From Halorussus aquaticus (GTDB lineage: Archaea > Halobacteriota > Halobacteria > Halobacteriales > Haladaptataceae): a stretch of 64,000 nucleotides of DNA. Shown one piece after another: positions 42,841 to 53,860 of the stretch (position 1 is the first letter of the stretch; the number at the start of each line of letters is the position of its first letter). Where the stretch lies: NCBI RefSeq assembly GCF_024218795.1, contig NZ_CP100400.1, positions 1,984,001 through 2,048,000 on the forward strand. The letters are read 5' to 3'. The position numbers and the translations under genes were made by a program. The notes beneath the pieces were generated by a model, which made no database searches, was not told the DNA's origin, and saw only the letters and a program-made list of their open reading frames with translations.

Positions 42841-43392
42841 ATGACTCAGAACTCCGAAACCGAGACGGCCACCCTCGCAGGCGGGTGCTTCTGGTGTACC
42901 GAAGCGGCGTTCAAGGAACTCGACGGCGTCGAGTCGGTCACGTCCGGGTACGCGGGCGGCCACGTCGAGGACCCGACCTACGAAGCGGTCTGCACGGGCG
43001 ACACCGGCCACGCCGAGGTCGTACAGGTGGAGTACGACACCGACGAACTCAGCTACGAGGACGTGCTGAAGGTGTTCTTCACGGTCCACGACCCGACCCA
43101 ACTCAACCGGCAGGGACCGGACGTCGGCACCCAGTACCGTTCGGCGGTCTTCTACCACGACGACGAGCAGAAGCAGGTCGTGCAGCGCTTCCTCCGCGAG
43201 TTGGACGCCGAGGGGGCCTACGACGGCGACGAAATCGTCACCGAGGTCGAACCCCTCGACACCTTCTACGAGGCCGAGGAGCGCCATCAGGACTACTACG
43301 AGAAGAACCCGAACGACCAGTACTGCTCGATTCAGGCCGAACCCAAGGTCCAGAAGGTGCGCGAGAAGTTCGGGGAGAAGGCGGCGCAGTAG
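42841..43392 (+). CDS. msrA: Peptide methionine sulfoxide reductase A
   Basis: The 183-residue protein has the MsrA active site GGCFWCTEAAF with catalytic Cys at about residue 17, plus VTSGYAGGHVEDPTYEAVCTGDTGHAEVVQVEYD and FYEAEERHQDYY. It reduces the S-form of methionine sulfoxide in proteins. It sits convergent to the chemotaxis cluster. Confidence 0.95.
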   Translation: MTQNSETETATLAGGCFWCTEAAFKELDGVESVTSGYAGGHVEDPTYEAVCTGDTGHAEVVQVEYDTDELSYEDVLKVFFTVHDPTQLNRQGPDVGTQYRSAVFYHDDEQKQVVQRFLRELDAEGAYDGDEIVTEVEPLDTFYEAEERHQDYYEKNPNDQYCSIQAEPKVQKVREKFGEKAAQ

Positions 43393-43472: not shown

Positions 43473-44021
43473 TCAGTTCTCGCTCTCTTCGTTCCCGCCC
43501 TCGCCTTCCCGGAGCAGAATCGGTTCGGGGTCGTAGGCGGTCACGACCGCGATTCGGCCGGTTCCGGTGTCGAACTCGACGGTCCGGCCGCGGCCGCCGC
43601 CCACGTCGCTGCCCTCGACCGGCACGTCGAGTTCCGCGAACGCCTCGCGGGCCGTGGCGACGTTGTCGTCGCTGACCTCCCGGGGCAGTTCGGTGAGGTC
43701 GAGCAGGTCGCTCCCGCCGACGACGTACCCCTCCAGCGCGGCGTAACTCGCGCCCGCCGACACCGCCTCGCGGAGCATCTGCTCGACGGCGGCGTCCACG
43801 TACTTGCCGTCGCTGGTGCCGTCGCCGTCCGACCGGCGGGGGAGCATCGCGTGGGCGAGTCCGCCGACCGCGTTCTCGGGGTCGTACACCGCCAGTCCGA
43901 CGCATGCGCCCAGTCCGTAGGCGACCAGCGTCGTGCCGTCGCCGACGACCTCGTACTCGGAGACGCCGACGAAGCGGCGCTCCCGCTCGGGCGTCTCGGG
44001 GTCGCTCTCGTAGGTCTTCAC
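43473..44021 (-). CDS. cheD: CheD chemoreceptor glutamine deamidase
   Basis: The 182-residue protein starts at GTG 44021. The GTG overlaps the stop of cheC (GTGA), which supports this start and translational coupling. CheD motifs include AYGLGACVGLAVYDPENAVGGLAHAMLP, with the catalytic Cys in GACVG, and EGYVVGGSDLLDL. CheD deamidates receptor glutamines and binds CheC. It is the last gene of the leftward transcript. Confidence 0.92.
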   Translation of the reverse strand: MKTYESDPETPERERRFVGVSEYEVVGDGTTLVAYGLGACVGLAVYDPENAVGGLAHAMLPRRSDGDGTSDGKYVDAAVEQMLREAVSAGASYAALEGYVVGGSDLLDLTELPREVSDDNVATAREAFAELDVPVEGSDVGGGRGRTVEFDTGTGRIAVVTAYDPEPILLREGEGGNEESEN

Positions 44022-44815
44022 GATATCACTCCGAGACCGACCTCGGAGATTTTGGTGACGAACTCCTCGTCGCCGGGGAACACGTAGATGGTCGCGTCCA
44101 CGTCGTGTCGCGGGATGCGGAGCCGCGACCGGATGAACAGGCCGACGCCGTACTGCTTGAAGATGCGCGCGACCAGCGTCCGCTCGGGGTCCTGCACCGG
44201 CACCGGCGACCCGGTGTCGATGGGCGTGTCGAACAGCGTGGCCCACTCGTCCACGAACCCGTTGGCCATCATGTTGCAGAGTTCGGTCAGCGCGTCCCGG
44301 CCCATCTCGGTCGAGACCGACGAGAGGTCCTCGACCGCCCGCTGGAGCATCAGCGCGGCGGCCTTGTTCGCGCTCTCCATCGGGAAGACGACCAGCACGT
44401 TCCCGACGAGGGGCTTGCTCAGCAGGACGCGCGCCCCGGCGCGCTCGCCCGCCCGGAACTGCGCGGGGACGGTCTCCTGCTCGGCGTAGCCGATTTTGAC
44501 CTGTTCGGTCGTCACCGTGAGGTCGTCGTCCAGCACGTCGTTGAGTCGGGACTCGACTCCGGTGACCCCCCGGTCGCCCAGCCAGTTGAGGACCGCCAGC
44601 GTCTTGAGCGGTATCGTCCGTTCGGCGTCGGCGGTCACCGAACTCTCCGCGCTCTCGCTCGCTTCCGTGGAGCCGTCGCGCTCGGCCGTCCCGTCGCCTT
44701 CGGTCGTCTCGTCCCCCTCGACCGTCTCGCCGCCTTCACCTCCACCGTCGCCTCCGGTCCGCTCCGGGTCTCGTTCGCGCCGCTCGCGCTCCGCCGCGTC
44801 GTTTTCGAGCGTCAT
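44018..44815 (-). CDS. cheC: CheC phosphatase-family protein
   Basis: The protein is 265 residues from ATG 44815. The first 65 residues are a Gly/Glu/Thr-rich linker. The CheC domain has a canonical catalytic pattern, EXXN, in DALTELCNMMANGFVDEWATLFD; the second motif is not clear. It removes phosphate from CheY-P and binds CheD. It overlaps cheW by four bases (ATGA) and cheD by four. Confidence 0.9.
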   Translation of the reverse strand: MTLENDAAERERRERDPERTGGDGGGEGGETVEGDETTEGDGTAERDGSTEASESAESSVTADAERTIPLKTLAVLNWLGDRGVTGVESRLNDVLDDDLTVTTEQVKIGYAEQETVPAQFRAGERAGARVLLSKPLVGNVLVVFPMESANKAAALMLQRAVEDLSSVSTEMGRDALTELCNMMANGFVDEWATLFDTPIDTGSPVPVQDPERTLVARIFKQYGVGLFIRSRLRIPRHDVDATIYVFPGDEEFVTKISEVGLGVIS

Positions 44816-45321
44816 GCCTGTGCCCTCGCTTTGGAGACGAGTACGTCCACGTCGAAGACGCCCATCGGTTCGTCGGTCCTGTCGGACTCGGCGACCACCG
44901 CTCGGAACCACCGCCGCCTGACTGACGGTTCCCAGTCGCCGTCTTCGGGCGTCTCGACGCTATCGACGTGGTGGGCGTCGATGCCCGCCACCTCGTCCAC
45001 GAGCAGGCCGGTCGGCCGGGCGTCGCCCCGGTCGAGCAACAGGAGCGTCGTCTCGGCGTCCGGCGCGCGCGTCGGGAGTTCGAGCAGCGCCCGACCGTCC
45101 ACGACGACCGGAATCTCGCTGCCGAGGTTGGTCACGCCCGCCACGGCCGGACCGGTCTGGGGGACCGGCGTCACGCTTGGGTCGTCGAGTATCTGCTCGA
45201 CGCGGCCGAGTTCGAGTCCGTAGTCGTCGCCGCCGAGACCGAAGCGAACGAACTCGACCCAGTCGCGTCTGTTCTCCTCGGTCTCGGGCGTCACCGCCCC
45301 GCCGGAGAGGTCACCGCTCAT
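44812..45321 (-). CDS. cheW: CheW coupling protein
   Basis: The 169-residue protein has the CheW SH3-like core: FVRFGLGGDDYGLELGRVEQIL, TPVPQTGPAVAGVTNLGSEIPVVVDGRALL and LLVDEVAGIDAHHV. It couples transducers to CheA. The N-terminal 20 residues are an acidic extension. It starts five bases after the transducer gene ends, in the same transcript. Confidence 0.92.
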   Translation of the reverse strand: MSGDLSGGAVTPETEENRRDWVEFVRFGLGGDDYGLELGRVEQILDDPSVTPVPQTGPAVAGVTNLGSEIPVVVDGRALLELPTRAPDAETTLLLLDRGDARPTGLLVDEVAGIDAHHVDSVETPEDGDWEPSVRRRWFRAVVAESDRTDEPMGVFDVDVLVSKARAQA

Positions 45322-45326
45322 CGGAG

Positions 45327-47153
45327 TTAGACCTCCTCGTCGCCGACGAGTTCGGTCGGTTCGCCGTCGTCGGCGTTCTCGGTGGGAGCGTCGATGTCGG
45401 TCGATTCACCGTCGGGCCGGGACTCGGTCGCCGCATCGCTGGCCAGCGGGTCGGCGTCGGGTTCGGCGTCCGGGTCGTCAGCGGTGGTCGAGACCGGGAC
45501 GGACTCGGTGTCGCGGTCGTCCGGGTGTCGGTCGTCCATCTCCGGGTCGTGAGCGTCGGCGTCTCCGGCGGTCGGTTCGGCGTCGTCGTCCGCTTCGACG
45601 CCGGTGTCCGGTTCGGCTTCGACATCCGTCTCGGTGTCGTCAGTACCCGTTTCGGTGGTGTCTACGTCGGTTTCGGTGTCGCCGAGTATCGCATCGTCGG
45701 TGTCGAACGAGTCCAGCGCGTTGCTGAGTTGGGTCGCCTGCCGGGCGAGGTCGCTCGCGCTGTCCGAGACCTGCGAGAGCGCCATCGTCTGGGACTCGGC
45801 CGACGCCGCCACGGTCTCGGCCTCGTCGGTGATACCCTCGCTGACCGCCGCGGCCTCCTCGACCATCTCCAGCGCCTCCTTCGTGGAGTCGGCCTGCTCT
45901 TGGGTCGCGTCGGATATCTCTTGGACGCCCGCGTTCGTCTCTTGGGCGTAGCCAGCGATGTCGGCCAGCGCCTCCGCGGCGTTCTCGACCGAGTCGGTCT
46001 GCTGGGAGATGCGGGCGCTCGTGTCCCGGACCTCGTCGACCGTCCGGTCGGTCTGGCGCTGAATCTGCGTGAGGCGCTGTTCGATGTCGCCCGCGGCCTC
46101 CTTCGTGCGCTCGGCGAGTTCCTTGATCTCGTTGGCGACCGCCGCGAAGCCAGCGCCCTGTTCACCGGCGCGCGAGGCCTCGATGTGGGCGTTCAGCGCG
46201 AGCATGTTGGTCTGCTCGGCGATTTCGGAGATGAAGTCGATGAGTTCGTCCACCTGCTGGACCTCGGATTCGAGGCTCTCGATGGCCTCGACGGTGTCCT
46301 CGGACTCGCTCTCGATGTCGTTCATCCCCTCGACCGCGTCGGTGGCGGCTTCTCGGCCCTCGCGGCCGGTCTCGGCGGTCCGCTCGGCGATGGACGCCAC
46401 CTCGTCGGTCGAGGCCGCGACCTCCTGCACCGCGGTCGAGAGCCGGTTCATCTGGTCGGCGGCCGCCTGCAGGTCGCCGGTCTGGGTCTCGGCGTCCACC
46501 GAGATGTCACGGAGCGAGTCCACGACGCGGGCGCTCCCGGAACTGACCTCCTCGGTGCTGAGCGTGACCTCTTGACTGTAGGTCGCCACCTCGTTGGCGA
46601 ACCGGGTGAGGTTCTCGACGGTGTCCTCGAACTCGGTTATCATCTCGTTGAACTCGGTGGCGACCCGGTTCATCGCGTCGCTCTCGGAACTGGGGTCCAT
46701 GCGCTCGTCGAGGTCGCCGTCGGCGCACCGGCGCATGACCTGCCCGTACGCCTCGGCGGTCTGTTCGACGTGGGCGTTCAGGTCCTCGGCCGCCAGACGC
46801 GCCCGGTGTTCCTCCAGCAGCGTCTCGTGCGTCTCGGCCATCGAGTCGGCGACCCGACCCACGCAGTCCACGCGGGCGGTGTCGAACGACGGGTCCTCGC
46901 CGTCGGCCCGGCGCTCCGCGCTCGCCACCAGTCTGTCGAGCGACCGACTGGCCCGCCACGAGACGGTCGTCCCGACGACTCCGGCGAGCAGTGCGCCGCC
47001 GAACGTCGCCGCGACGACAGTTCGGTCGAACTGCCCGGTCGCGTACACACCTCCTGCCGCGATTGCGCCGACCGCTACCATCGTCAGGCCGAACTTCAGC
47101 GAGTAGCGTCGCCTGACGAAGCCGGGGACGACTGCGCGAGCAAAGTTGGTCAT
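45327..47153 (-). CDS. Methyl-accepting transducer with no sensor domain
   Basis: The protein is 608 residues from ATG 47153. A second ATG at 47198 exists, but the TATA TTTATTA at 47178-47184 lies about 27 bases before 47153, fitting a leaderless start. Two spans lie at about 20-40 and 46-67 with only about six residues between them, so there is no extracellular or cytoplasmic ligand domain. A HAMP region and the signalling tip [20 protein letters not shown] follow. The tail after ~490 is low-complexity acidic. Input must come from a partner; H-NOX is encoded next door. Confidence 0.88.
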
Positions 47154-47177
47154 TGCGCGAACCCATTCGGTATAGCG

Positions 47178-47184
47178 TAATAAA
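47178..47184 (-). promoter_or_regulatory. TATA box deciding the transducer start
   Basis: Read on the minus strand as TTTATTA, about 27 bases before ATG 47153. A second, stronger ATTTTATAAC element at 47209-47219 would place its transcript start near 47187, also downstream of ATG 47198. Both favour the shorter protein. Confidence 0.5.
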
Positions 47185-47303
47185 TCTTCACGCAACATGA
47201 ACGATAGGTTATAAAATGTAGGAGAAAGGAAAAATCAACTGACGGCGCGTCCTTTTAGAATATCCACAGGACTCACGCCCGCGCCGTTACCGACAATCGG
47301 TGG

Positions 47304-47846
47304 TCACTGCCGGGTGACGAGGATTTCACACTGGTCGTCGCCGTCCAGCATGCACGTCCGCTCCTCGATTCGGTACTGCTCGTCGTAGTAGGACTCGATA
47401 CCGCGGAGCAGGCCCACGGCGAGGGCGCAGAGTTCCCGTTCGGAGGTGTAGGTCACCGCGACTCGGTCGTCGCCGACCCACTCCGCCGACAGCGCTGGCG
47501 GCGTGTACGTGGACAACTGCTTGGCGCGCAGGGCCTCGTGGATGTACGTCTCGACGTTGGCGACGAGTTCGAGACCGGTCCACTCCGTCTCGACGTGGAC
47601 GCCGTACGTCTCGACCAGCGGCGGGACGAGGAACCGACCGAACGCGTCGAGCAGGTCGGGCACGTCCTCGCCGGTGGCGTCTGCGGCCGCCTCCACCAGC
47701 GCGAGGACGTCGGCGTCCTCGTACTCGGTCACGGGGACGTACACCTTGCCTTCCAGTCCCGCGCCGTCCTGAATCGCGCGCCACGCCTCCCGGTCGTACT
47801 CGGCGGTCACGAAGTCCTTCAGCCCTTTCAGTACGATGCCATGCAC
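47304..47846 (-). CDS. H-NOX (haem NO-binding) domain protein
   Basis: The 180-residue protein starts at GTG 47846 and begins MHGIVLKGLKDFV, as H-NOX proteins do. His103 in ETYIHEALRAK is at the proximal haem-ligand position, Pro117 matches the haem-distorting Pro, and Tyr133/Ser135/Arg137 give the YxSxR haem-propionate motif. The residue five after Arg137 is Leu142, where O2-binding H-NOX proteins have Tyr, so NO or CO binding is predicted. It lies between the che genes and the sensorless transducer. A longer GTG start at 47966 would add a basic, atypical 40 residues. Confidence 0.93.
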   Translation of the reverse strand: MHGIVLKGLKDFVTAEYDREAWRAIQDGAGLEGKVYVPVTEYEDADVLALVEAAADATGEDVPDLLDAFGRFLVPPLVETYGVHVETEWTGLELVANVETYIHEALRAKQLSTYTPPALSAEWVGDDRVAVTYTSERELCALAVGLLRGIESYYDEQYRIEERTCMLDGDDQCEILVTRQ

Positions 47847-48114
47847 GGCTACTGCCCCCGTCCTTCGAAAGGTCGGTTCGCGGAGACGCGTGCAGGTCCG
47901 GTCCCGGCGACACCGCGTCGCGGGGGTCGGTTCGGGACTGTCCTTCGAACCCTCCGGGGATGACACATGATTTAATCGGATTCGGACACATCCTATAACT
48001 GTTCTGGCCGTTCGCGTGACGAATCGTCGATTCGAAGGTCGCAGTGGTGATAGTGATAGTAGTGGTCGTTGGAGATACCCAGCGACGCGGATTCCCGAAA
48101 CCCGAAATTCGACC
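47847..48114 (-). promoter_or_regulatory. Leader and promoter region of H-NOX
   Basis: About 268 bases lie between the H-NOX start and the double-CheC stop. A TATA-like AGTTATAGGA at 47991-48000 would put the transcript start near 47969, leaving about 120 bases of leader before GTG 47846. A purine-rich GAAGGACGGGGG lies about 12 bases before the GTG and may be a ribosome site. Within this span there is also a GTGATAGTGATAGT direct repeat (48046-48059, plus strand). Confidence 0.45.
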
Positions 48115-49410
48115 TCAGAGCGACTCCCAGTAGTCGAGGTCCACGTCCTGCTCGGAGAGGTCCGTGTCGGCCTCCGGGGTGGTGTCGGCGACCCGACCCA
48201 TGTCGAACTCGCCGAGCGCGGCCCGGAGGTCGGCCTCGTCCGGGATGACGTAGATGTCGAGGTCCACCTCCGTATCGACCGCCTCGATTCGGGTGTCGAA
48301 GACGAACGCGAACTCTTGGGACTCCCCGAGACCCACGACGAGGGGGTCCACCACCGCCGCGCCCATGTCGTGGGCGTAGGCGGGCGTCGAGTGGTCGATG
48401 GTGGTGTCGAGCAGGTTGGCCCACCCGTCGAGCATCCCGCTGGCCATGACGTTCGAGAGTTCCTGAATCGCGTCGCGTTCGAACTCCCCGAGACCCGCCG
48501 CGGTGTGGGTCTCGACGCTGCGACTCACGAGCGTCCGGGCCGACTCCTCGTCGAACAGGAACAGGAGGTAGCCGCTTGGCATCCCGGCGAAACTGAACGC
48601 CACTCCTATCATGCGCTCGGTCGAGACCTCGCTGGGAATCGCGTCGAGCGAGATGAAGTTGATTCGCCGGATGTCCACGTCCATCTCGATGTCGGTCATC
48701 TGGGTCAGGTTGTTCGCCACCTGCGTCGCGCCGCGCTGGGCGATGCGGTCGAACCCGACCAGTTTCTCGAACTCGATGGCGCGCTCCTCGCTCCGCGCCC
48801 TGAACAGGCGCTGGACCGTGTCGGTGTCGGGCACGAGGTAGTGCCTGAAGGTGAGTCGCTCGCCCACCGCTTCGAGGTTGTTGCGGAACAGCACCGCCAA
48901 CTCGTCGCTGGCACCGCCGACGGACCCCTCACCCGGCGACTCCTCGTCGCCGAGCGCGAGCGCCGAGTCCGCGAGGAACTCGTCGGGGGTGTCGGCCGAG
49001 ACGTACGTCGGCGCGGACACGTCGATGTTGGTGTCCAGCACGTTGGCCCACCCGTCCACGAACCCGTTGTTCATTATCTGGGCGATCTCGGTCACGGTGC
49101 TGTCGTGGAGGGTCCCGTCCTCGACCGTCGGGATGCCGTCGATGACCGCCGCCGCGATGGTCTCGGCGCTCTCCCGGTCGAACAGCAGGACCGAGGTGCC
49201 GCCGAACCCGTCGGAGAGGCGGACCCGGATGCCGACCCACTCGGTGTCGGTCAACTCGCGGGCGATGGAGGCGTCCCGCGTGAAGTTGAGGTGGGTCACG
49301 TCCACGCGCGCCGGGATGTCGGTCATCGAACTCAGCCGATTCGCCGCGAGTCCGGCCCCCTCCCGGGCCATCTCGTAGAACGTTCCGAGGGTGTCTACGT
49401 CGAGTTTCAT
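48115..49410 (-). CDS. Double CheC-domain protein
   Basis: The 431-residue protein has two CheC-like domains. In the first, the motif reads TEIAQIMNNGFVDGWANVLD, with Gln where the second catalytic Asn sits. In the second it reads QELSNVMASGMLDGWANLLD, the intact EXXN. Its start overlaps the cheA stop by four bases, so it is co-translated with CheA. It probably acts as a CheY-P phosphatase or adaptor; one half may be structural. Confidence 0.88.
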   Translation of the reverse strand: MKLDVDTLGTFYEMAREGAGLAANRLSSMTDIPARVDVTHLNFTRDASIARELTDTEWVGIRVRLSDGFGGTSVLLFDRESAETIAAAVIDGIPTVEDGTLHDSTVTEIAQIMNNGFVDGWANVLDTNIDVSAPTYVSADTPDEFLADSALALGDEESPGEGSVGGASDELAVLFRNNLEAVGERLTFRHYLVPDTDTVQRLFRARSEERAIEFEKLVGFDRIAQRGATQVANNLTQMTDIEMDVDIRRINFISLDAIPSEVSTERMIGVAFSFAGMPSGYLLFLFDEESARTLVSRSVETHTAAGLGEFERDAIQELSNVMASGMLDGWANLLDTTIDHSTPAYAHDMGAAVVDPLVVGLGESQEFAFVFDTRIEAVDTEVDLDIYVIPDEADLRAALGEFDMGRVADTTPEADTDLSEQDVDLDYWESL

Positions 49411-52400
49411 AGGGTTGCCACGTCCAGTACGTTGACCGCCTCGCCGTCGCCGAGCGTCGTCGCGCCGCTGACGCCGGGCACGTCCCGGAGCAGGTCGCCG
49501 TAGGGCCGGACCACGACCTCTTGGGACGCGACCACGCGGTCACACCGCACCGCGAGTCGCCCGGTCTCGCCCCGAATCCAGATTATCTGGCTGTCGTCGG
49601 TCGGCCGTTCGGCGTCTGTGTCGAGGTCCAGCGCCGACGCCAGTCGCACGAAGGGGTAGGCGTCGTCGGCCTCGACGCCCTCGGGCAGACCCCCCACGAG
49701 GTCGAGATTCGAGCGCCTGACGACCTCGCGGCCCTCGACCTCCTCGACCGGCGGCGCGGCGGTTATCTGTTCGACCGCGGCCATCGGGACGCCGAACGTC
49801 TGGTCGGCCGCCTCCACGAACAGCACCTCGGTCAGCGCGATGGAGACCGGGACCCGCAGTCGAACCGTCGTCCCGACGCCGGGGTCGCTCTCCACCGTCA
49901 CGCTCCCGTTGAGGTCGGCCACCGTCCGGTTCACCACGTCCATGCCCACGCCCCGCCCGCTCACGTCGGTGACCTCCTCGCTGGTGGTGAAGCCGGGTTC
50001 GAAGAGCAGGTCGTAGGTCTCGTCGTCGCTCAACTGCTCGGCCTCCGCGGGCGTGACGACGCCGTTCTCGACGGCCCGCTCCCGGACCGCTTGCGCGTTG
50101 ACGCCCCGGCCGTCGTCCGAGAGTTCGACGACCACCTCGTCGCCGACTCGCTCGGCCGAGATGGCGACGGTGCCCTCCGGGGCCTTGCCGACCGCCTCGC
50201 GCTCCTCGGGCGACTCGATGCCGTGGTCTACGGCGTTGCGCGCGAGGTGGACCAGCGGGTCGCGCAGGCGGTCCACGATGGAGCGGTCGAGTTCCACGTC
50301 GGCGTCGCTCACGACGAGTTCGACCTCCTTGCCCTGCGAGCGCGCCACGTCCCGGACGGTCCGGGGAATCGCGTCGATGGCGGTTTCGAGGGGCATCAGG
50401 CGCACGTCCATGACCGTCCGGCGGTAGTCGGTGACGACCCGCAGCAGGTTCGAGACCTCCTCGCGGATGGCCTCGTCGGTGTCGGGACCGACCGCCTCGT
50501 CGAGTCGGAGGTGCGACAGCGACAGTTCCTCGGCGACGTCGAGCAGTTTGTCGGCGGTGTCCACGTCCACGGTCATCGCCTGCAGGCGGTCGAACTCGCG
50601 GGCGTCGTCCGGTCGGTCGCCGCCCGCGGTCGGGAACTCGTCGGCGTCGAGTCTGCTCTCCTCGATGGTGGACACCGCCGACCGGAACACAGCGCCATCG
50701 TCGCCGTCGTCGTCGGTTCCCGGCCCGGTGCCGAGCAGGTCGCCGAACCGCGACTCGAACTCGGCCATCTCGTCGTCCACGGAGACGTCCATCTCGGTCC
50801 CGGCCGCGCCGTCGCCGCCGAGACCCCCGGACGCCTCGTCGCCGAGGTCCGCGTCGAAGTCGCCCGACAGGTCCACGCCGAGGTCGGTCTCGGGCATCGA
50901 GTCGGCGTCGGGGACCGACTCGGCGTCCGGAAGCGAATCCGCGTCCGGGAGTGAGTCGGATTCTGGGAGGGCGTCGGCGTCCGGAACGGAATCGGGGTCC
51001 GGAAGTGAATCGGCATCGGGCACCGAATCGGCGTCCGGAACGGATTCTGCGTCGGCATCCGAGTCGGGGTCCGGAAGTGAATCGACATCGGGTAGCGAAT
51101 CGGCGGCCGGGACCGAGTCGGGGTCGGGAACCGAATCTGCGTCCTCCGGTACCGCCGCAGAGTCGGGTGTATCAGCCGACCCCGGTACGCCCGCAGACTC
51201 CGGTGTGCCGGTGGTATCGGGCGCTTCCCCGTGTTTGGCCGATTCCACGGGTTCGGAGGATTCTGCGTCGCCCGGTTCGGCGGCGTCGGCGAGCGAGTCC
51301 GGACCCTCAGACGCGTCCGCTCGGTCGGGCGCGTCGGCGGAGGTGGGCCCGTTCGCGTCCACGGACTCGGGTGCGTCTGCGGGTTCGAGCGAACCGACCG
51401 AATCTACTTCGACCGGCGTATCGGTCGGTTCGTCGCCCGACGCGGGCGTCGAATCGAGTTCGGAATCCGTATCGGACAACGAAGCCGAGTCGGGTTCGAC
51501 GGCCGAGTCGGCGTCGTCTAGCGACTCGGCCTCTGTTCCGTCGTCCGCGGACTCCGCCCCGAAGACGAACGTGTTGGTCGCGCCGCTTTCGGGAGTCTCC
51601 GGCGACTCGTCGGTGTCGTCGCCTCCGGCGGACGCGTCGGCCGAACCGGTCGAGTCGTCCGGTGACAGGTCGGCGTCCGCGAGACCGAGGGGGTCGCCGA
51701 CCGAGTCCGCGGCGTCCGACGACTCGTCGGCAGTCGCCTCGTCGCTCTCGCCCGAGTCCGCAACTCCCGACCCGAGCAGGTCGGCCGGAACCTCCAGCGA
51801 ATCGTCGGCGTCCCCGACTGCCGGTTCGGCGGGCGCTCCGTCAGCGTCCGCCGTCTCGTCGGCGTTCGGGGCGGTGTCGGCGTCCACCGTCTCGTCGGTC
51901 TCAGTCGCTTCGAGCGATTCGACGCCCGCGTCCGGCGTCGGTGCCGCCGACTCGGGTCGGTCGTCCGCCGCCCCTTCGTCGGGGTCGAGGTCCATCAGTT
52001 CCTCGATGGTGTAACTGTCCTCGTCGTCGAACTCGCCGAACTCGACCGCGTCGATGTCCTCCTGCAGGGCGTCGATGTTCTCCTCGTCGTCTATCTGAGC
52101 TTTGGTCTCCTCGAAGAACGCGGACGGTTCGTCGGGCGTCTCGGCCTTCTTCGGTCGCCCGGAGGACCCGGCCGAGTCGGCAGGGCGGTCCGTCGCTGAC
52201 CTCGCATCGTTCGGGGAGTCTTCGATAGAGGAGGCGTCTTCGGCGACTGCTGCGCCGTCAGTCCCCGGCGAACCCGTGTCGGGGGCCGCGTCGGCGTCGC
52301 CTTCGTCGAGGAGTCCCCACCCGTCGAGTTCCTCGTCGCCGTCCGGGTCGTCCATCTCGTCGAGGAGCGCGTCGAGGTCGTCGAACTCGGTCGTGTCTTC

Positions 52401-52883
52401 GAGCGCCGCGACCACGTCGTCGCTCAGGTCGTCGTCCGCGGGATCCCACTCGCCGGGCGACGCGGACGCGGCGGACCCGAGCGTCGCGTCCGAGTCGTCG
52501 GTCTCGGCGCGCGCCTCGTCCAGCGCGGCCCGGAGCGATTCGAGCGTCGCCTCGGCGTCGCTCGGTCGCTCCTCGCCGACCGCGGCGGCGCGGACCGTCG
52601 CTTCGAGCAGGTCCACCGTCCCGAGCGCCTCGTCCACGAGGGTGGGCGTCGGGGCGACGTCGCCGCTCCGAATCGCGTCGAGAACGTCCTCGACGGCGTG
52701 GGCGAGTTCGCCCGCCTCGTCGAGTCCGTGGGTCCGACACGACCCCTTGAGCGAGTGAGCGACGCGGAACAGTTCGGCGACGGCCGCGTCACCGTCGTCG
52801 CCCTCGACGGCGAGCAGACCGTCGTTCAGCGCGCGAATCTGGGACTTGGCTTCCCGAAAGAAGGCGTCGTCAGTCGGGGCCAT
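49407..52883 (-). CDS. cheA: CheA histidine kinase with long acidic linker
   Basis: The 1158-residue protein has an N-terminal Hpt domain with His43 in FRVAHSLKGSCRTHGL. A linker of several hundred residues, very rich in Asp, Ser, Glu and Pro, follows, longer than in the family (CheA is normally about 650-750). Dimerisation, HATPase (HLARNAVDHGIESPEE, DDGRGV, FEPGFTTSEE, GRGVGMDVV) and CheW-like domains complete it. It phosphorylates CheY. The linker includes a tandem repeat (listed separately). Confidence 0.95.
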   Translation of the reverse strand: MAPTDDAFFREAKSQIRALNDGLLAVEGDDGDAAVAELFRVAHSLKGSCRTHGLDEAGELAHAVEDVLDAIRSGDVAPTPTLVDEALGTVDLLEATVRAAAVGEERPSDAEATLESLRAALDEARAETDDSDATLGSAASASPGEWDPADDDLSDDVVAALEDTTEFDDLDALLDEMDDPDGDEELDGWGLLDEGDADAAPDTGSPGTDGAAVAEDASSIEDSPNDARSATDRPADSAGSSGRPKKAETPDEPSAFFEETKAQIDDEENIDALQEDIDAVEFGEFDDEDSYTIEELMDLDPDEGAADDRPESAAPTPDAGVESLEATETDETVDADTAPNADETADADGAPAEPAVGDADDSLEVPADLLGSGVADSGESDEATADESSDAADSVGDPLGLADADLSPDDSTGSADASAGGDDTDESPETPESGATNTFVFGAESADDGTEAESLDDADSAVEPDSASLSDTDSELDSTPASGDEPTDTPVEVDSVGSLEPADAPESVDANGPTSADAPDRADASEGPDSLADAAEPGDAESSEPVESAKHGEAPDTTGTPESAGVPGSADTPDSAAVPEDADSVPDPDSVPAADSLPDVDSLPDPDSDADAESVPDADSVPDADSLPDPDSVPDADALPESDSLPDADSLPDAESVPDADSMPETDLGVDLSGDFDADLGDEASGGLGGDGAAGTEMDVSVDDEMAEFESRFGDLLGTGPGTDDDGDDGAVFRSAVSTIEESRLDADEFPTAGGDRPDDAREFDRLQAMTVDVDTADKLLDVAEELSLSHLRLDEAVGPDTDEAIREEVSNLLRVVTDYRRTVMDVRLMPLETAIDAIPRTVRDVARSQGKEVELVVSDADVELDRSIVDRLRDPLVHLARNAVDHGIESPEEREAVGKAPEGTVAISAERVGDEVVVELSDDGRGVNAQAVRERAVENGVVTPAEAEQLSDDETYDLLFEPGFTTSEEVTDVSGRGVGMDVVNRTVADLNGSVTVESDPGVGTTVRLRVPVSIALTEVLFVEAADQTFGVPMAAVEQITAAPPVEEVEGREVVRRSNLDLVGGLPEGVEADDAYPFVRLASALDLDTDAERPTDDSQIIWIRGETGRLAVRCDRVVASQEVVVRPYGDLLRDVPGVSGATTLGDGEAVNVLDVATL
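50887..51148 (-). repeat. Tandem hexapeptide-coding repeat in the CheA linker
   Basis: About fourteen units of an 18-base repeat encode variants of Asp-Ser-(Val/Leu/Met)-Pro-Asp-(Ala/Pro/Val). The unit is degenerate but in frame. It is part of the acidic linker of CheA and could vary in length between strains. Confidence 0.75.
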
Positions 52884-52949
52884 CCCTGCACCTCCGGGGG
52901 GTCCCGCGTCGAAGGCGCTGGTTCGGGCGTTCGGGCGTCTCAGCAGCCA

Positions 52950-53318
52950 TCAGACGACCACCCCGTCGATGGCGTCGGTGAGTTCCTCGTCCTCGAAGGG
53001 TTTCGTGATGTACGCGTCGGCACCGGCGCGCGCGGCCAACTGTATCTTCTGTCGCTGGCCCACGCTGGTACACATGACGACCCGAACGTCGTCGTCGAGT
53101 TTCTTGATGGCGGCCGTGGCCTTCAGGCCGTTGGCCTTCCGCATCACGATGTCCATCAAGATGAGGTCGATGTCCTCGGCGTTCTCCTTGTACTTCTGAA
53201 TCGCCCACGCGCCGTTCGGCGCCTCGGCGACGATTCGATACTCGTCGTCCGCGAGCGCGCTCTTCACTCGCTGTCGCATGAACTCCGAGTCGTCCACGAT
53301 GAGAATCCCGGTCTTCAT
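52950..53318 (-). CDS. cheY: CheY response regulator
   Basis: The 122-residue protein has a receiver domain with the acid pair in ILIVDDSEFMRQ, the phospho-acceptor Asp in LILMDIVMRKANG, Ser/Thr in CTSVGQRQ and the conserved Lys in YITKPFEDEEL. It would carry phosphate from CheA to the archaellum adaptor. It is the first gene of the leftward cluster, with cheA 66 bases after it. Confidence 0.95.
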   Translation of the reverse strand: MKTGILIVDDSEFMRQRVKSALADDEYRIVAEAPNGAWAIQKYKENAEDIDLILMDIVMRKANGLKATAAIKKLDDDVRVVMCTSVGQRQKIQLAARAGADAYITKPFEDEELTDAIDGVVV

Positions 53319-53497
53319 GGCGTGTTACCCATCATTCATGCGCTTCCGTGCGAAGTATAAAATACTATTCCCCGGAAGGATACCAAGAAATCCGATAGTT
53401 CGTTAGATTTGACGCTTTATCTAGTCATCCAGTTAGGTGAAATAGCGACTTTCGGCCAATAAATTTAATTGCCTTGAATATTTGTGTCCGGGTACAC
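53319..53497. promoter_or_regulatory. Shared promoter region of cheY and the truncated haemoglobin
   Basis: The 179-base AT-rich gap between divergent genes holds a minus-strand TTTTATAC at 53355-53362, about 40 bases before the cheY ATG. On the plus strand AAATTTAAT (53461-53469) lies about 30 bases before the globin ATG. Two genes so placed may be co-regulated; no operator is recognised. Confidence 0.55.
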
Positions 53498-53860
53498 ATG
53501 TCCGAGACACTCTACGAGCGCCTCGGTGGCCGGGACGCTATCTCGGCCGTCGTCGAGGAGTTCTACGACCGCGTCCTCGACGACCAGCGCGTCGAACACT
53601 TCTTCGACGATACCGACGTGTCGGCACTCCGCGCACACCAGACCCAGTTTCTCGCGTCGGTGACGGGCGGGCCGGTCGAGTACGACGGCGCGGACCTCTC
53701 GACGGCCCACGCTCACCTCGACATCGACGGGCGGGACTTCGAGATAATCGCCACCCACCTCGACGAGTCACTCGCGGCCTTCGACGTACCGGAGTCCGAG
53801 CGCAGGGAGGTGGTCGCCGCGGTGGCCGAACTCGAACCCGCCATCGTCTCGGCCGACTGA
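53498..53860 (+). CDS. Group I truncated haemoglobin
   Basis: The protein is 120 residues from ATG 53498. It has the trHbN order: LYERLGGRDAISAVVEEFYDRVLDD with Tyr23 at the B10 position, LRAHQTQFLASVTGG, and the proximal His71 in TAHAHLDIDGRDF. Group I truncated globins bind O2 and NO; several act as NO dioxygenases. It starts 179 bases from cheY in a chemotaxis locus that also encodes an H-NOX sensor. An NO-scavenging role is inferred. Confidence 0.93.
   Translation: MSETLYERLGGRDAISAVVEEFYDRVLDDQRVEHFFDDTDVSALRAHQTQFLASVTGGPVEYDGADLSTAHAHLDIDGRDFEIIATHLDESLAAFDVPESERREVVAAVAELEPAIVSAD

Follow-up and report, generated by a model that had tools for sequence, protein, structure and literature searches.

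The closest described counterparts of the gene cluster analysed here, a second set of chemotaxis (che) genes grouped with a gene for a haem-nitric oxide (NO)/oxygen-binding (H-NOX) protein in a 64,000-nucleotide stretch of the genome of Halorussus aquaticus (contig C1, bases 1984001-2048000; hereafter the window), come from haloarchaea as well as from other prokaryotes. In the sensory rhodopsin/Htr pairs of haloarchaea, sensor and transducer are different proteins, the former driving the latter in trans, and in the aerotaxis transducer HemAT of Halobacterium a globin-type domain and the methyl-accepting chemotaxis protein (MCP) part are united in one protein. HemAT provides the chemosensing of haloarchaea with a gas input based on haem (PMC9680633). 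In bacterial fusions of the Caldanaerobacter type, an H-NOX fold is joined to an MCP signalling domain and feeds gas input into the chemosensory array; O2 binding by H-NOX proteins requires a distal tyrosine (PMC8738867). The H-NOX proteins of Shewanella, Vibrio and Caulobacter stand alone: soluble, acting in trans and provided with three cysteines, they are partnered with the histidine kinase HnoK or cyclic-di-GMP enzymes (PMC12329717, PMC7108781). Among archaeal che regions, the che2 regions of Methanosarcina are without CheF (PMC2666748), and the main haloarchaeal che operon, which in the 4.74 Mb genome of the window is located elsewhere (L049), encodes CheY, CheA, CheC and CheD homologous to those of the cluster described here.

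This cluster, which we refer to as che2, differs from each of these systems. Unlike the Caldanaerobacter-type fusions, its H-NOX is encoded separately, is without the distal tyrosine, contains three conserved cysteines, is archaeal and is accompanied by che genes of its own. Compared with the stand-alone H-NOX proteins of Shewanella, Vibrio and Caulobacter, its neighbour is a chemoreceptor with CheA, CheW, CheY, CheC and CheD. In contrast to the sensory rhodopsin/Htr pairs, the sensor is soluble and of the haem type, and no rhodopsin gene lies beside the che2 transducer; in contrast to HemAT, it is an H-NOX that would act in trans. The Methanosarcina genomes with che2 regions, for their part, keep fla genes, and the accessible part of PMC2666748 contains no mention of H-NOX. 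A sequence-only reading of this DNA, made before the present analysis, knew of no described haloarchaeal case, in agreement with the literature that we searched (subscription papers are mostly outside it), where no report of an archaeal or haloarchaeal H-NOX chemosensory locus was found. In its available part, PMC5847659 names the H-NOX family HNOB solely for its kinship with another domain, and in that of PMC9680633 haem comes up only in connection with HemAT and with PAS-type or protoglobin receptors.

We lean, with moderate confidence, towards interpreting che2 as a dedicated second chemosensory pathway that is gated by a soluble haem sensor and has an output other than, or besides, the CheF/archaellum switch. 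In such a pathway, H-NOX would bind NO, its most likely ligand, change shape and act in trans on a transducer that lacks an external sensor domain. By homology, the transducer and CheW2 would control CheA2, CheA2 would phosphorylate CheY2, and CheC, the double CheC and CheD would provide dephosphorylation and feedback, CheB and CheR not being encoded in the cluster. Removal of NO would probably fall to the divergent group I globin, and the target of phosphorylated CheY2 would most likely be one other than, or additional to, the CheF/archaellum switch. Directly observed are the gene content, the conserved linkage of H-NOX and transducer genes, the external region found in the transducers of two H-NOX-less loci, the separate CheA lineage, the distinct CheYs, and purifying selection on the cluster in a lineage published as having no archaellum. 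The genes that had been named from sequence alone, the che, H-NOX and transducer genes on one strand and the divergent globin, were all recovered by profile matches at positions 43473-53860:

43473..44021, minus strand: CheD, GTG start (PF03975, E 1.9e-18)
44018..44815, minus strand: CheC, 265 residues from the ATG (PF04509, E 1.8e-5; 25 bits, cut-off 22)
44812..45321, minus strand: CheW2 (PF01584, E 4.8e-19)
45327..47198, minus strand: transducer (MCP) with two membrane helices, a very short loop and no ligand-binding domain found (PF00015, E 3.7e-37)
47304..47846, minus strand: H-NOX, stand-alone sensor of the haem NO/O2-binding family, 180 residues, GTG start (PF07700, E 1.2e-31)
48115..49410, minus strand: double CheC, phosphatase-like, 431 residues, with two CheC matches in one frame (PF04509, E 5.2e-14)
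49407..52883, minus strand: CheA2 kinase, 1158 residues (PF01627, PF02518, PF01584)
52950..53318, minus strand: CheY2, single-domain response regulator (PF00072, E 1.8e-27)
53319..53497, no strand: intergenic region separating the globin gene from the divergent cheY2 gene, with both promoters likely to lie in it, from reading the sequence
53498..53860, plus strand: group I truncated haemoglobin, divergent from cheY2 (PF01152, E 5.4e-21)

With four gene starts corrected (H-NOX, GTG at 47846; globin, ATG at 53498; cheC, ATG at 44815; cheD, GTG at 44021), four-base overlaps are seen at cheA2/cheCC, cheW2/cheC and cheC/cheD, pointing to an operon-like arrangement. The H-NOX gene is flanked by gaps of 268 bases before it and 105 bases after it and may therefore have its own promoter. 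All scores of CheD against the NCBIfam CheD profiles are under their cut-offs. The same neighbourhood is found again in family groups f1, f3 and f5 of the class survey described below, indicating that the arrangement is not due to chance; the co-occurrence in other haloarchaeal genomes that the sequence-only reading had proposed to look for was found, and the locus is a real, conserved module.

The window H-NOX, a predicted haem gas sensor with kinship to the NO receptor of animals, scores 110.2 bits against HNOB (PF07700; curated cut-off 25.5) and is the only HNOB match in the genome. Its best sequence matches in the PDB are Shewanella oneidensis H-NOX entries, and its AlphaFold2 (AF2) model, with a mean predicted local distance difference test (pLDDT) score of 91.7, retrieves 4u9b, a Shewanella H-NOX, as the top Foldseek match (template modelling score, 0.90). 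The protein keeps His103, Pro117, Tyr133/Ser135/Arg137 and Cys140/165/173, and has Leu142 in the column that we take to be that of the distal tyrosine; apart from the cysteines, these residues had already been picked out in the sequence-only reading, and the alignment bears them out. The C-terminal part of the protein also matches V4R, with 29.6 bits (under the cut-off of 31), in line with the kinship between HNOB and V4R noted in PMC5847659.

To place these residues in context, we surveyed 391 genomes of the class, 86 of which had an HNOB match at 1e-3 (85 of those over cut-off), and retrieved the surroundings of the matches as 115 stretches (L050-L164) of 20 kb at most; LT46, Salinigranum salinum and YIM A00013 were read in addition. 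In the alignment of 119 surveyed open reading frames (ORFs) with that of the window, a few rows of which are fragments or doubtful frames (for example two from L163), the proximal position is occupied by His in 46 sequences and by Tyr in 40, and the remaining 34 have another residue or a gap there. The proximal His, Pro117 and the YxSxR motif are invariant across 45 aligned His-type proteins, and the three-cysteine site occurs together with Pro117 and YxSxR in 46 of 46 His-type sequences. Glu occupies the fourth zinc-ligand position in 43 of these 46, among them the window protein (Glu162), and the other three have His or Gln; the fourth ligand published for zinc-site H-NOX proteins is His/Gln (PMC7108781), a difference between most of the haloarchaeal His-type proteins and their stand-alone bacterial counterparts. 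A tyrosine at the distal column was found in none of the 120 haloarchaeal HNOB sequences, which disfavours an O2 sensor of the Caldanaerobacter kind; H-NOX and MCP are moreover separate genes. Judging from the distal leucine, the linked group I globin, and a nitrite reductase gene (nirK) that scores over cut-off in the window genome, NO appears to be the likeliest ligand. Among solved structures, the globin is closest to those of group 1, for example HbN and cyanoglobin, which, with the PF01152 match, upholds its earlier assignment as a group I truncated haemoglobin; it is linked in 8 of 13 che2 loci, H-NOX being present in 11 of them.

The association of H-NOX with a transducer extends well beyond the window. 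Apart from the window's, there are 45 His-type H-NOX genes, and 33 of them (30 loci) are followed on their own strand by an MCP gene, whereas among the 74 non-His HNOB genes only three have a same-strand MCP within about 4 kb (one more lies 9 kb off on the opposite strand). The che cluster itself occurs in two gene orders, that of the window and H-NOX-MCP-cheW-cheY-cheA-cheC-cheD. It is present in full in Haloferax marinum (G245), and a contig of only 4.3 kb from Haloferax profundi (G262) carries H-NOX and globin genes. Taken with the transducer architecture described next, the linkage and the two gene orders argue for the coupling of H-NOX to a sensorless transducer and Che proteins that had been proposed from sequence alone. 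Beyond the che, H-NOX and globin genes, no credible family recurs across lineages beside the 13 che2 loci as a conserved output gene, in a listing that includes many out-of-frame ORFs.

At 1e-5, the only Pfam match in the window transducer is MCPsignal; its HAMP match reaches 20.7 bits, under the cut-off of 25. Hydropathy was examined for 34 non-duplicate H-NOX-linked MCPs (from the 30 class loci, the window, L169, L170 and L174), and no external domain was found in any of them: 32 have two adjacent helices forming a hairpin (seen as a merged hydrophobic block in four), and two have no helix (L087, L089). Pfam searches at 1e-5 on 28 of the 34 returned MCPsignal in all 28, DUF948 in three and Rv2743c in two, and no sensor domain. 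Conversely, two genomes with the same che cluster and no HNOB match in the survey (G375 and G156) encode MCPs of 796 and 836 residues with a large external region, whose flanks (helix 1, and helix 2 with part of HAMP) align to the window transducer. That an external region is present where H-NOX is absent supports the view that H-NOX acts in trans as the missing sensor. The simplest reading is that the region was lost when H-NOX took over sensing, although we infer the polarity of the change, loss rather than gain. The external region itself matched no Pfam family, and its AF2 model, based on a two-sequence alignment, reached a pLDDT of 44.3. An orphan sensory-rhodopsin transducer (Htr) was considered and rejected, the only rhodopsin match of the genome (C1:421747) being adjacent to another MCP.

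The remaining genes contain the parts of a Che system, with CheW and CheY joining the MCP and a CheA that has phospho-His and kinase boxes. CheA2 possesses His43 in its histidine phosphotransfer (Hpt) domain, the kinase core and a CheW-like end, with a 655-residue linker containing 32% Asp+Glu between Hpt and kinase core; the dimerisation profile PF02895 had no CheA2 match in the genome search. Open frames longer than 1,000 residues are also frequent among the CheAs of family f4. Set against the main haloarchaeal operon, CheA2 and CheY2 are distinct: both fall under the NCBIfam equivalog cut-offs (507.6 bits against 950 for CheA_Halo, 136.7 against 200 for CheY_Halo), the che2 CheAs form a clade of their own (14 sequences against 25 others; FastTree support, 1.0), and cheB, cheR and cheF were not found among the cluster genes in profile searches. 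CheY2 keeps its phospho-acceptor site. At position 17 in helix 1, all 13 che2 CheYs aligned have Arg, as opposed to Leu in three CheYs located beside other CheAs (L049, L262, L263). Since helix 1 of CheY takes part in the contact with CheF (PMC9126983), position 17 may itself touch CheF. The second Che system, the absence of cheB, cheR and cheF matches from the cluster and the three cysteines of H-NOX had gone unmentioned in the sequence-only reading.

Whether the cluster serves swimming can be approached through the nine genomes that carry it. CheF and CheR were found in seven of these, and neither in Halocatena marina (G277) or Actinarchaeum halophilum YIM 93972 (G183; main contig of 2,676,592 bases); at 1e-30 these two genomes have one CheA match each, compared with two or three in the other seven. 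For G277, the case for a missing archaellum is that one weak ArlCE/D-type match was obtained and that the arl-like genes of the window genome, as named by sequence reading, had no matches around it, although no full search was made. The case for G183 also rests on PMC10067837, in which the hyphae- and spore-forming Actinarchaeum clade is reported to have lost the archaellum and a type IV pilus system typified by PilB3. Between YIM 93972 and YIM A00013 of the same clade, the ratio of non-synonymous to synonymous substitution rates (dN/dS) is 0.06-0.28 across seven open cluster genes (H-NOX 0.09, CheY2 0.06, MCP 0.07), CheA2 being covered over 374 residues only and the short CheC left uncounted, as its query matched the double CheC again. 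The corresponding ranges are 0.09-0.39 for the window against LT46 and 0.02-0.18 for a Haloferax pair. These values and the open frames lead us to reject a decaying relic in the hyphal archaea. They suggest instead that the cluster is probably working in Actinarchaeum halophilum and, if the published loss of the archaellum is right, that it does not serve swimming there. We tentatively raise the further possibility, itself doubtful, that an array driven by NO or redox state controls cell differentiation or another developmental decision in hyphae- and spore-forming haloarchaea, the transducer having lost its external sensor when H-NOX took over.

Several observations weigh against the preferred reading, that of a dedicated second pathway. 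The assembly holding the window has an estimated contamination of 8.8%, and the surveyed relatives are not independent of one another. Twelve of these other 45 His-type genes lack an MCP in the stretch retrieved, which shows that the tie between H-NOX and a transducer is not universal (two, L073 and L076, are at contig ends; L162 is a fragment; and the MCP-like neighbour in L091, without a signalling domain, would be a doubtful 34th case). It is not unusual for a transducer to lack a long external loop, as five of the ten other MCPs of the window genome belong to this type (four without helices and one hairpin, L182, beside five with a long external loop). The H-NOX-less che2 loci are just two, came to light through a high CheA score rather than a census, and sit in an MCP tree whose deep branches are poorly supported (0.29-0.60 for the groups holding these sequences). 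Lastly, only 7 of the 30 H-NOX/MCP loci come with the che cluster; the stretches retrieved for the other 23 gave no match to any che gene, so these pairs must use a CheA encoded elsewhere and probably feed another array, likely one for swimming, which is the natural guess for their output. Swimming is also the output in the gas taxis proposed by the sequence-only reading, whereby H-NOX with NO would act through the transducer, CheA2 and phosphorylated CheY2 on the archaellum motor, by way of the CheF of the main system. The window genome does encode archaellin-family and ArlCE/D-type genes as well as two CheF genes, which CheY2, with its intact phospho-acceptor site, could use, and swimming is thus possible in this organism. 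However, the separate CheA clade, a CheY2 under the haloarchaeal equivalog cut-off, the Arg-for-Leu exchange in the helix that contacts CheF, the lack of cheF matches in the cluster, and the retention of the cluster in Actinarchaeum, where no CheF was found and the archaellum is reported as lost, weaken this part of the earlier proposal, and we consider gas taxis rather unlikely.

A different objection concerns the signal. The three conserved cysteines stand against NO as the only one, and oxidation of a predicted zinc site at Cys140/165/173, in place of NO on the haem, constitutes a serious rival, to which we assign the same rather low likelihood as to gas taxis. The cysteines are found in all 46 His-type sequences and in 40 of 40 Tyr-type sequences, which have lost the proximal His. 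Oxidation of such a site activates the H-NOX of Vibrio cholerae without haem (PMC7108781) and that of Caulobacter, which NO does not activate (PMC12329717). An msrA gene also lies near che2 in the window (42841-43392) and in LT46 (L169, near 17786), but it was matched in none of the other loci compared. Moreover, zinc binding is itself a prediction here, a haem site that works is the likelier reading of an invariant proximal His, Pro117 and YxSxR, and NO is indicated by nirK and by the globin linked to the cluster. It might also be supposed that the membrane helices of the transducer, like those of MpcT and HtrI in Halobacterium, sense a different stimulus and that H-NOX is an independent neighbour. 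The hairpin MCP L182 shows that the genome has a second protein of this build, yet the linkage of H-NOX in 33 of 45 cases, the external region in the two H-NOX-less loci, and the position of the only rhodopsin gene next to another transducer make this explanation very improbable.

The survey also yielded observations on the wider HNOB family. Tandem H-NOX pairs precede the transducer gene in G384 (L050), G374 (L051), LT46 (L169) and Halocatena (L052), whereas the window has one gene; the tandem proteins of L050-L052 fall in two parts of the family tree, of which the window carries only the first. Six His-type genes without an MCP (L074, L054, L092, L053, L075, L081) lie near genes for a PNPOx-type oxidase, an amine-oxidase-type flavoprotein, NifU, or a NUBPL/ParA-type ATPase, which are possible other partners of H-NOX. 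The paralogue without the proximal His occurs in 73 of the loci L086-L164 (74 genes, with Tyr in 40 and another residue or gap in 34) and keeps all three cysteines in 63 of the 74; it may be a haem-less zinc/thiol sensor. In most of its loci it is found, by sequence reading, near genes for ribose-phosphate pyrophosphokinase (59 of 73), a phosphomannomutase-like enzyme (62 of 73) and isoleucyl-tRNA synthetase (54 of 73). The Tyr-type genes of L088, L103 and L115 have an MCP with a long external region within a few kb on their own strand.

As far as the searched literature goes, che2 would be the first archaeal H-NOX pathway. It would also be an example of a receptor whose own sensor domain has given way to a separate soluble sensor, with two H-NOX-less loci available for comparison, and genetics is routine in the genus Haloferax. 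Finally, a cluster that is under selection in hyphal archaea with reported loss of the archaellum would offer a test of non-swimming roles for archaeal chemosensory systems.

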